From Verrucomicrobiaceae bacterium (GTDB lineage: Bacteria > Verrucomicrobiota > Verrucomicrobiia > Verrucomicrobiales > Verrucomicrobiaceae), in contig JAEUHN010000047.1 of the NCBI GenBank assembly GCA_016795365.1, forward strand, positions 186,001 through 250,000: a DNA stretch of 64,000 nt, written 5' to 3'. The translations under genes were made by a program, and so were the position numbers. Under the pieces are notes generated by a model. The model saw only the letters and a program-made list of their open reading frames with translations. It was not told where the DNA came from and did not search any database. This document shows, piece after piece, positions 53,614 through 59,010 of the stretch (positions within the stretch are counted from its first letter, which is position 1; each line of letters opens with the position of its first letter).

Positions 53614-56058
53614 TCACTCGCCCAAGGTGCCCTTTGTGACGCCGAGCTGCGATTGCGCACGCAGCTCGCGCCACAAGGCCTGGACGTCGTTCTTGCCTGC
53701 GAGCAACTGCTGATACTGTCGCAGTGTGTGCGCGGTTTCGTCACGATTCTCTTCGAGCAGTTCGATGCGGAAGCTGCGCAGTCCTGCCTCAACGAGTTGC
53801 GGGAAGAAGCTGGCTCCTGTTTGCGCACTCGCATTGAAGAGCGTGTTGCGACAGCCCACGTCGGCCTTCAGCGGATGCATCATGCCCACGCGATCACGCA
53901 GGTGGACGCGATGCTTCTCGCACGGGCGACCGCAGTTGGTGAAGTCGGTGCCTTTCGACAGGAAGGCTGCGAACGCGCAGTGCTCCATGTGAAACATCGG
54001 CATGTGCTGATGCAGCGTGATCTCGAACCACTCCGGTGGCGCGGCACGCAGAAGGTCGAGCACTTGCTCAATGTTGAGATCATAGCTGATCGTGAGCTGC
54101 TCCAGCGCCGTGTTGGTCTTCAAGAAGTGCGCCGTGAGCGGATTCGCGACATTGAGCGAGAAGTCGCCGGTCACACGCAGGCCCGTGCCTTCAAAGAACG
54201 ACAACGCGCCGAGATTGCGGATCAGCACGCCATCAGGTTGCGAGCGTTCGATGAGCTTGAAGAAGCCAGCTTCGCCCGACTTCTGAATACGCGGCGTGGC
54301 GAGGAAGATCTCTGCCTTGTGTGCATGCTTGCGGATGTGCTGCACGGCCTCGCCGTATTTGCGGATGTCCTCGAAGTCGATGTAGAGCCGCGGCACCGCG
54401 TGGTTCAGTGCGACATCGATGTGGTCGAAGGTGCGGCACAGAACGGACAATTCCTGATGCTTGATTCCTGATTCCTCAATCAAGGTGCCTCGTGCGTCGG
54501 CGAGCATAGCTTCGAGCGAAGTGCTAGCCGCCTTGGCTGCGGGAGGTGAATCAGGAATCAGGATTCGCGAATCAGAAATCAGATCCCGCCTCATGCGATT
54601 CAGCTCGCTGACGGGCACGATGACGTCGCCTTCGACTTCGAACTTCACCTCGCCCAATTCAAACGTGGTGCCGCCGAGCCGACCGAACTGATCGCGAATC
54701 GTCTCCAGGCTGAGCGGACGCTTGAGCGCGGCTTGCAGTGGCATCGATGACTCAATGGTCACGCCCTGACACGACACGCGCAGTGGCTCACCCACACGAC
54801 CCGTGACCGTGAGATCCAGGCGGTGCTGCTTGCGCAGCGGGATGTCGTTCTCAAACGTCTGGCGCAGCGCGCGATTGAGCGCGGGATCGCTCGTCTTGTA
54901 AACGCGCGTGCCGTTCGGGATGAAGTCCATGTTCAGCAGCCCGTGACGGAAGGACAACACGGTGCCGTCCATCTCATAGACGCTGCCGCCTTGCTCATCG
55001 TTGGTGTTGAACGTGTTCTCGAACACGACGCCGTCGCCTGGCTTCATCGCGATGTGCAGCTCATCGAGCTTCACGGTGTCATTGTCGATCACGCCAACCA
55101 CCTTGCCCACATAGGGACCGCGCTTCTTGCCGTAGCGAGCACCGACGAGTTCCTGGTGATTCACACCGTGCATCCAGCCCGTGTAGAGCCCTCGCGAGAA
55201 GGTCATCTCCATCGCATACATGTCGGCGTCGTTGATCGGATCAGGACGGTTCGCTAGTGCGGCGTCGATGGCCTTGCGATAAGCTTGTGTGACCGCAGCT
55301 ACGTATTCAGGTGTCTTCAGGCGGCCTTCGATCTTGAAGCTCTTGATGCCCAGCTCGATCAGCTTTGGGATTTCATGCACTGCCGCGAGGTCTTGTGGCG
55401 AGAGCAGATACGCCTTGTCGCCGAGGTCCACCTTCTGGCCATCGACAATCATCTCATAAGGCATGCGACACGCCTGCGCGCACTCGCCGCGATTGGCGCT
55501 GCGTTTGCCCAACGATTCGCTGGTGAGGCACTGGCCCGAATACGCGACGCACAGCGCGCCGTGCACGAAGGTCTCCAGCGGCACCGCGGTGTCCTTGAAG
55601 CGTTCTAGTTCGCGCAGCGACAGCTCACGCGCGAGCACAGCCTGATCAATGTCCAGCTTCTTCGCGAACTCCAGGCCCTCGGGCGACGTGATCGTCATCT
55701 GGGTGCTCGCGTGAAGGCGCAGGTTCGGCGCGAGTTCCTTCACCATGCGCGCGAGGCCGAGGTCCTGCACGATCACGGCATCCACGCCCGCGTCTTCGAG
55801 CAGCTTCAACTGCGCCGCCGCATCGTTCAGCTCGCTGGTGAAGACGAGCGTGTTGAACGCGGTGTAGCCTTTCACGCCATGCTGATGAAGGAAGGTCATC
55901 AGCGCAGGCAGGTCCTCCTCGGTGAAGTTGTCTGCACGCAGCCGTGCATTGAACCTCGGCATGCCGAAGAAGATCGCGTCCGCTCCATTCGCGACCGCAG
56001 CGCGCGCGCAGTCCCAGTTGCCAGCGGGCGAGAGGAGTTCTGGTCGTGATGGATTCAT
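53614..56058 (-). CDS. U32 family protein (RlhA/YdcP-like, long form)
   Basis: The 814-residue product is read from the ATG at 56058 (MNPSRPELLSPAGNWDCARA). Peptidase-U32 markers are ELLSPAGNW, LHASTQMTI, FVHGALCVAYSGQCL, and the Cys cluster GECAQACRMPYEM. The extended C-terminal half matches DUF3656-type proteins such as E. coli RlhA, which hydroxylates 23S rRNA C2501, with SIASTCV absent but CGRPCEKHRVHLRD present. A protease role is now doubted for this group. Between the two halves sits a low-complexity stretch encoded by an inverted-repeat-rich segment at 54462-54573. It is 76 bases downstream of guaB. Confidence 0.9.
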   Translation of the reverse strand: MNPSRPELLSPAGNWDCARAAVANGADAIFFGMPRFNARLRADNFTEEDLPALMTFLHQHGVKGYTAFNTLVFTSELNDAAAQLKLLEDAGVDAVIVQDLGLARMVKELAPNLRLHASTQMTITSPEGLEFAKKLDIDQAVLARELSLRELERFKDTAVPLETFVHGALCVAYSGQCLTSESLGKRSANRGECAQACRMPYEMIVDGQKVDLGDKAYLLSPQDLAAVHEIPKLIELGIKSFKIEGRLKTPEYVAAVTQAYRKAIDAALANRPDPINDADMYAMEMTFSRGLYTGWMHGVNHQELVGARYGKKRGPYVGKVVGVIDNDTVKLDELHIAMKPGDGVVFENTFNTNDEQGGSVYEMDGTVLSFRHGLLNMDFIPNGTRVYKTSDPALNRALRQTFENDIPLRKQHRLDLTVTGRVGEPLRVSCQGVTIESSMPLQAALKRPLSLETIRDQFGRLGGTTFELGEVKFEVEGDVIVPVSELNRMRRDLISDSRILIPDSPPAAKAASTSLEAMLADARGTLIEESGIKHQELSVLCRTFDHIDVALNHAVPRLYIDFEDIRKYGEAVQHIRKHAHKAEIFLATPRIQKSGEAGFFKLIERSQPDGVLIRNLGALSFFEGTGLRVTGDFSLNVANPLTAHFLKTNTALEQLTISYDLNIEQVLDLLRAAPPEWFEITLHQHMPMFHMEHCAFAAFLSKGTDFTNCGRPCEKHRVHLRDRVGMMHPLKADVGCRNTLFNASAQTGASFFPQLVEAGLRSFRIELLEENRDETAHTLRQYQQLLAGKNDVQALWRELRAQSQLGVTKGTLGE
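54462..54573. repeat. Inverted-repeat-bounded segment inside U32 gene
   Basis: TGATTCCTGATTC (54462-54474) is perfectly inverted as GAATCAGGAATCA (54548-54560). Immediately beyond lies the 12-bp palindrome GATTCGCGAATC (54562-54573). The segment is in frame and encodes a Ser/Ala-rich linker containing SDSRILIPDSPPAAKAAS. It looks like a small mobile or slipped-repeat insertion rather than conserved enzyme sequence. Confidence 0.55.
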
Positions 56059-56134
56059 GGATGCGAATGGGGAAACGATGGCCGCACAGTGCGCCACGTT
56101 TCGCCCCAGGTCATTCGACATTCGTCGTGTCGGC

Positions 56135-57687: not shown

Positions 57688-59010
57688 TCAGCGAGGAACG
57701 ATGGAGCGGAGATGCTCGCGCAACTGCGCTCCGCGCGTGGTCCAGGTGAAGTCGTGAAGGCACCGTGCGCGGGCCGCAGCGCCGCGCGTTGCCCGCTCGG
57801 CGATGTCCGTTGCGAAGGCGTGGAGGGCGCTCGCGAGCCCGTCGATCGCTGCGTCTGGTGTGATCGCTTGAACCTTCCAGCCACAGTCGTCACCGACGAT
57901 GAAGTCGGGGCCACCGTAGCGCAGGCAGAGGATCGGCAAGGCAGCGGCCATGGCTTCGAGCACCGCATTGCCCCCGGAGTCGTGCAGACTGGGGTAGAGG
58001 AAGCCATCGGCGCCGCGATACGCTGCGAGCACTTGGTCACGCGGGAGTTCGCCTTCAAAGATGACGCGATCGGCGAGGCCGAGGCGTTGGGCTTCGGCTT
58101 CGAGGTAGGGCCGAAGTGGGCCGTCACCGATGATGCGGAAGCGGAGATGCGAGGGTCTCTGTGCGAGCGCTCGAAGTGCGAGGTGAACGCCTTTCCACGC
58201 GATGAGTCGGCCGACGTAAAGGAGCGCGAGCGGCTCTTGGTTGTAGCTGGCCTCTGTGAGGCCGGAGACGTGGGGCTTCGATGGAGCTTGGGCGTCCGCC
58301 CAACCAAGTCGTCCGCTCGTGCCATCCGCATCAGGTCCGGGCTCACAGAGCCCGGCTACAGTTGCCAACTCATCCTCCGAGAGCGCTACGGCGGTGAGCA
58401 CTTCGACGCGATGGGCACCCAGCTTGCGCAGTGCCTCAGCGGTGTCGTGTGTGACGCCGAGAGCGATCGTGCTGCGTCGGCAGCACAGGCGCAGGAAGGG
58501 ATCGAGCAAGGCAAGCTTTTGCAACGCGACGCGCGCGGCTTCGGCGAAGCGCGTCTTGAGGCCGAACTCGCGGTAGAACTGTGCCGGTGCACGCTCGGCT
58601 CCGCCAACGGGACCAAAGATGAACGGAAGGCCAAGGAGATGGAGAAAGCTCGGCGTGTTGTATTTCACAAAGGTGACGTGCTGGCAGGCATCGAAGCGAT
58701 GCTGGTCGTGCAATCGCGTGGCCGTGATCCACGCCGCGATCTGCCAGAGGTAGTAGTAGATCAGCCAGCACAGGCCGCTGTTCAGAGGGCCTTCGACCAA
58801 GCTGGTCAGCACTGGGATGCGAACGAAGTGCAGATGAATGCGAGGATGTTCCTCGGGACGGAAGACACGCTGCACCTTGGGCTCCCAGTTCGCATCGACC
58901 AGCGCGTGGAGTTCGTGCTCGCGTGCGAGTTCCTCCACGGTGTGCCATCCCACGCCCGGCTCGGAGCCTCGGCCAGGGGAGAGGGAGAAGGCGGTGACGA
59001 GGAGACGCAT
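57688..59010 (-). CDS. GT4-family glycosyltransferase with in-frame palindromic insertion
   Basis: The 440-residue GT-B protein has AFSLSPGRGSEPGVGW at the N-terminus, YVGRLIAWKGVHLALRALA and GDGPLRPYLEAEAQRLGLAD in the second lobe, and the nucleotide-sugar site SLHDSGGNAVLEAMAAALP. It moves a sugar from an NDP-donor onto an unknown acceptor, probably in surface polysaccharide. Between the two lobes about 39 extra residues (GLCEPGPDADGTSGRLGWAD and onward) are encoded by the REPIN-like element at 58243-58359. The gene is separated from the queG operon by a terminator and has its own 68-base upstream gap. Confidence 0.88.
   Translation of the reverse strand: MRLLVTAFSLSPGRGSEPGVGWHTVEELAREHELHALVDANWEPKVQRVFRPEEHPRIHLHFVRIPVLTSLVEGPLNSGLCWLIYYYLWQIAAWITATRLHDQHRFDACQHVTFVKYNTPSFLHLLGLPFIFGPVGGAERAPAQFYREFGLKTRFAEAARVALQKLALLDPFLRLCCRRSTIALGVTHDTAEALRKLGAHRVEVLTAVALSEDELATVAGLCEPGPDADGTSGRLGWADAQAPSKPHVSGLTEASYNQEPLALLYVGRLIAWKGVHLALRALAQRPSHLRFRIIGDGPLRPYLEAEAQRLGLADRVIFEGELPRDQVLAAYRGADGFLYPSLHDSGGNAVLEAMAAALPILCLRYGGPDFIVGDDCGWKVQAITPDAAIDGLASALHAFATDIAERATRGAAARARCLHDFTWTTRGAQLREHLRSIVPR
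58243..58359. repeat. REPIN-like element: inverted pair of GTAG-hairpin repeats
   Basis: The left end reads GTAG (58243-58246), then GGCCTC-TGT-GAGGCC (58249-58263). The right end reads CCGGGCTC-ACA-GAGCCCGG (58337-58355), then CTAC (58356-58359). Reverse-complemented, the right end is TGTAGCCGGGCTCTGTGAG, which matches the left end TGTAGCTGGCCTCTGTGAG except at positions where stem pairs swap together. A third hairpin, TTGGGCG-TC-CGCCCAA (58288-58303), lies between them. GTAG before a palindrome is the hallmark of REP sequences handled by TnpA-REP (RAYT) transposases. The element is exactly 117 bases (39 codons) and in frame. Confidence 0.7.

Follow-up and report, generated by a model that had tools for sequence, protein, structure and literature searches.

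A probable REPIN-type repeat pair inserted in frame in a glycosyltransferase gene of a Verrucomicrobiaceae genome

Introduction

The usual view is that REPIN-type elements travel as single-stranded DNA, their hairpins being recognised by a Y1 (HUH) transposase. GTAG repeats occur in the PVC superphylum and, in the survey by Di Nocera et al. (2013; PMC3733652), their intragenic copies are most numerous in Opitutus terrae. The survey already describes head-to-head dimers, heterodimers, REPs that lie wholly within ORFs and degeneration of the tag. In this paper we look at a palindromic insert inside a glycosyltransferase gene, located in a window of 64,000 nucleotides (the whole stretch of DNA that was analysed). 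The original prediction regarded a coding insertion as unusual for Verrucomicrobiota, an expectation that the survey does not support.

Results

The features of the locus are collected in Table 1. The insert consists of GTAGCTGGCCTCTGTGAGGCCGG, 71 nt and CCGGGCTCACAGAGCCCGGCTAC, and the boundaries (58243-58359) and length (117 nt) first proposed for it were correct. Both ends are composed of GTAGC, a G+C-rich stem and a TCTGTGA loop region; each is a GTAG tag next to a hairpin of 8 bp and a TGT loop, if the T-A and C-G pairs within TCTGTGA are included. The two 23-nt ends are inverted, with the tags outside and with a spacing that falls within the 20-100 nt range set for such pairs.

Table 1. 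Coordinates of the glycosyltransferase gene, the insert and its parts in the window.
Feature	Position	Strand	Remarks
GT4-family glycosyltransferase, GT-B fold, 440 aa	57688..59010	-	intact; insert at about residues 218-256
REPIN-type head-to-head REP dimer, 117 nt	58243..58359	.	inside the GT4 gene
REP end GTAGCTGGCCTCTGTGAGGCCGG	58243..58265	+	insert 3' end in gene orientation; model R1, 39.3 bits, E 2e-6
REP end GTAGCCGGGCTCTGTGAGCCCGG	58337..58359	-	insert 5' end in gene orientation; model R1, 41.3 bits, E 5.8e-7
Central hairpin TTGGGC-GTCC-GCCCAA	58288..58303	.	related copies without it
Inner flank ACCTGATGCGGATGG	58322..58336	-	ACCTGA start recurs beside REP ends (G001 copies, host second copy)
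Inner flank CGAAGCCCCACGTCT	58266..58280	-	close match CGAAGCCCCACGCCT in G001 HEAT-gene copy

The claim of two inverted, GTAG-tagged REP ends was borne out by folding, by pattern matches and by a covariance model. Folded as a single strand, the segment reaches -33.6 kcal/mol compared with -21.9 +/- 2.8 kcal/mol for its shuffles (z = -4.2; 0 of 200 as good), and a degenerate end pattern gave two zero-mismatch matches in the window against 0.18 expected by chance with three mismatches allowed. The covariance model, which was built from 12 sequences with both insert ends among them, finds the ends at E values of 5.8e-7 and 2e-6 in the 6.74-Mb host genome. Among the 12 variant ends all eight stem pairs are 100% paired and five of the eight show two-sided changes, a covariation score reached by none of 500 shuffles; the compensatory stem changes noticed earlier are thus real. 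A third hairpin had also been described between the ends and it is present at 58288-58303, but it is missing from related copies. A search of Rfam with the element gave no match, and a plasmid search returned only matches at E = 0.6 with at most 20% query cover, which are not meaningful. The observation itself is confirmed.

The original prediction that the insert keeps the frame of a GT4 gene and forms a linker between the lobes agrees with the open 440-aa ORF, whose reading frame continues across the insert, and with the AlphaFold model. The protein contains a Glycos_transf_1 C-terminal domain (PF00534, E 1e-25) and has a GT-B fold; its best Foldseek match is MshA (3c4q, E 1e-17), and sucrose-phosphate synthase and BshA are also among the top structural matches. 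The AlphaFold model, made from a five-sequence alignment, has a mean pLDDT of 78, with lobes that are well predicted on either side of a stretch below 50 at residues 223-251. This stretch corresponds to the core of the insert and sits between the last helix of the N-lobe and the first strand of the C-lobe, and the insert is therefore predicted to be a disordered linker that joins the two lobes. Comparison of the host and its same-genus relative gives an omega of 0.11 for the N lobe, 0.16 for the C lobe and ~0.63 for the insert, the alignment of the insert being uncertain. The insert is under little constraint and evolves almost freely as long as the frame stays open.

A close orthologue of the gene was found in only five of 68 genomes of the family, the host included. 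Alignment of these orthologues, which had been proposed as a check, showed that the three family-level ones (G008, G010 and G013) do not carry the 39 residues and that the one from the same genus carries a related insert. Within the genus the comparison is between the host (G000) and one other genome, G001, whose orthologue shares 80% protein identity with that of the host and bears a related REP pair of 124 nt (GAAGCCGGGGTCTGTGACCCCGG ... CCGGCCTCACAGAAGCCAGCTTC) in the same linker. The right junctions of the two inserts fall at the identical base and their right REPs have the same T.G wobble and the same GCTGGC start. The G001 insert differs from that of the host in its GAAG tag, in its interior and in its left junction, which is 17 nt away. 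The interior of the host insert is closest to another G001 copy, found in a HEAT-repeat gene, and not to the G001 glycosyltransferase insert; it is the inner flanks ACCTGA.GCG and CGAAGCCCCACG that tie the two copies together (z 6.3). The length of exactly 39 codons that had been emphasised holds here, but a multiple of three is no property of the element, as the G001 ORF stays open despite its 124-nt insert.

The G001 copy in the HEAT-repeat gene (C315), which also contains CxxCH, is in frame as well, and this REP pair is absent from the host orthologue and from six others. In this genus, then, insertion of the REP family into coding sequence with the frame kept has happened two or more times. 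Retention of the frame is to be expected, because out-of-frame insertions would be lost, and no special mechanism is needed. The HEAT-repeat gene of the host has an in-frame palindromic insert of its own (GGCATCCTGCC...GGCCGGATGCC; G000:C22:59306-59343), a few codons beyond the G001 REP site, and in its exact form this insert occurs only once in the genome. Elsewhere in the window, within the large ORF 53614-56121, the inverted repeat ATTCCTGATGCTTGATTCCTGATTC at 54450-54572 has 25-nt arms that lie 73 nt apart and is possibly another in-frame palindromic insertion.

How widely is this REP family distributed? Copy counts are based on pattern and covariance-model searches, and with both of them a replicating population of dimers was not found in the host genome. 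The genome-wide search that had been suggested gave no further intact pair in the host beside the glycosyltransferase insert, but it did give one decayed, GAAG-tagged pair. This second clear copy (C20:60528-60658, 131 nt) is partly decayed. The larger family that had been supposed thus has indirect support: the host has almost none of it, but G001 has a small family of these pairs and Planctomycetota have very many. The model search at E<=1 gave 19 matches in G001 and 34 in G010. G001 has several REP pairs of 124-162 nt, some with inner flanks common to the host insert, and all the G001 copies examined have the GAAG tag at their ends. Two regions of G010 (C41:46500-49500 and C49:52400-53000) hold arrays in which the REP variants GTAGGCCGTCTCTGTGAGGCGGC and GTAGCCTGGCTCTGTGAGCCAGG alternate; here a diverged REP class that shares the loop has expanded locally.

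Scanning GTDB contigs for GTAGCCGGCCTCTGTGAGGCCGG gave at least 120 stretches, mostly from Planctomycetota (among the listed matches Gemmataceae, Pirellulales and Isosphaera) and a few from Verrucomicrobiota, and the exact form GTAGCCGG-NN-TCTGTGA occurs in none of 387 other sampled Verrucomicrobiota genomes. In the collected loci 69 of 76 close pairs face inward like the host pair; end-to-end lengths are mostly 47-68 nt (commonest 67, 68 and 47 nt) and the stems are of the types GGCC/GGCC, GGGG/CCCC and GAGG/CCTC. A frame of at least 300 codons spans 31% of the planctomycete dimers compared with 84% of random positions; since the dimers avoid long open frames, an intragenic position is the exception. 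Direct horizontal arrival of this insert from a planctomycete is an unnecessary assumption because the inner flanks match same-genus copies, although the family as a whole may have come in that way.

Another question is which transposase could have moved the insert. The host has ten Y1_Tnp matches. By NCBIfam, three short Y1 proteins (two from the host and one from a relative) are IS200/IS605 TnpA, and one host gene is RAYT-like at 60.8 bits, under the 80-bit cut-off. This gene (G000:C30:2124-2912) has GGAGCGCGGGCACTCCTGCCCGC-type inverted repeats on both sides, ~110 nt apart, and together with its flanks it is likely a complete REPtron of another REP class. A RAYT had been suggested as the mover of the insert, but the repeats beside the RAYT-like gene (GGAGCGCGG-type) are unrelated to the TCTGTGA class, so that a cognate RAYT is not supported. 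Two similar short IS200-like Y1 genes, one at G000:C30:62790-63410 and one in G001:C34, lie between inverted GTAGC hairpins whose loop is of the TTTCAA type; the G001 gene has such a hairpin on each side, and the host gene has an intact copy and another that is slightly altered. The layout is REP-like, but the transposase at its centre is no classical RAYT. Given these flanking GTAGC hairpins, a Y1 protein could plausibly move GTAGC-tagged dimers. TCTGTGA ends were found beside none of the Y1 loci examined, among them a part of the Y1 genes of G001 and of the Planctomycetota genomes, so that we infer Y1-driven movement from the known biology of REPINs. A tblastn search of the collected loci for a RAYT or Y1 gene gave no match, although this is a weak test with some queries on the wrong strand.

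Discussion

The explanation that fits these data best is that the insert is very probably a relic GTAG/GAAG-tagged REP dimer, of the REPIN type and non-autonomous, which sits in the flexible linker of the glycosyltransferase, where it is tolerated and has kept the frame. On this reading a Y1 transposase would have mobilised the dimer and placed it between the two Rossmann lobes of the GT4 enzyme, most likely ahead of the split between the two species of the genus. The frame may have been kept at insertion or restored by small indels nearby. Its position in a disordered loop, together with the kept frame, would mean that the insertion was tolerated, and the insert appears to be neutral for the cell. 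Counting against this explanation are the near absence of the family from the host genome, the Y1 loci, which as far as examined lack flanks of the TCTGTGA class, and the differences between the G001 insert and that of the host.

A single ancestral insertion is probably to be favoured over two. One possible but less likely option is that a GTAG subfamily in the host and a GAAG subfamily in G001 inserted separately in the same linker, which would then be a tolerated hot spot. This would fit the different tags at both ends, the 17-nt shift of the left junction, interiors that are not significantly alike and the nearness of the host interior to the HEAT-gene copy, yet the right junction is identical and the right REPs have their wobble and start in common. 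In addition, the genus is represented by a single further genome, and conversion from another copy after one insertion accounts for both sets of facts.

It could also be argued that the insert was co-opted and that the linker, or an mRNA hairpin, tunes the enzyme, since in both species the frame has stayed open through the insert although the insert itself has changed greatly. We consider this improbable: the omega of the insert points to little amino-acid constraint, the insert is predicted to be disordered, its interior is not conserved, and selection on the C-terminal lobe alone would keep it in frame. That the segment is a palindrome by chance, or a native linker particular to this lineage with no more than a likeness to a REP, would agree with the single intact copy in the host genome but is extremely improbable when the ends belong to a family that is multi-copy elsewhere, the stems covary, the covariance model finds the ends at E 6e-7 and 2e-6 in the 6.7 Mb of the host genome and more distant orthologues have no insert.

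Beyond the relic dimer itself, a rather doubtful but broader suggestion is that the REP class with the TCTGTGA loop is common to Planctomycetota and this verrucomicrobial genus, and that within the genus it entered genes in frame repeatedly and switched from GTAG to GAAG, perhaps with short IS200-like Y1 transposases, whose genes here bear inverted GTAGC hairpins with a different loop, and not classical RAYTs as its movers.

Compared with known systems, the insert resembles the GTAG-tagged REP superfamily, as described in PMC3733652, in its GTAG terminus, 6-9 bp stem and compensatory subtypes, in its head-to-head arrangement (mostly 20-100 nt apart, with heterodimers of different stems) and in that some copies lie inside ORFs. 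It differs in being nearly single-copy in the host genome and in the GAAG tag, in place of GTAG, of the sister species; the comparison is made at the level of the superfamily. With the REPINs mobilised by RAYTs (Bertels and Rainey, 2011; PMC3116915) it shares two inverted REPs around a spacer, thought to be one moving unit, whereas the host has neither a replicating population nor a RAYT with matching ends. The RPE elements of Rickettsia, cited in PMC3733652, are likewise palindromic and lengthen proteins by a peptide in frame, but their sequence family is another one, RPE-4 and RPE-6 being members of the CGTC superfamily, and so is their host, where they are multi-copy. The locus is a clean example of a small palindromic repeat that lengthens a protein: the insert is found in both available species of the genus and not in distant orthologues, and it is placed in the one loop of the enzyme that is likely to be tolerant. 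The tag differs between the sister genomes (GTAG against GAAG), and this may be of use in finding out which transposase recognises it. The element is thus a sound new example of a documented kind and not a new class of element.
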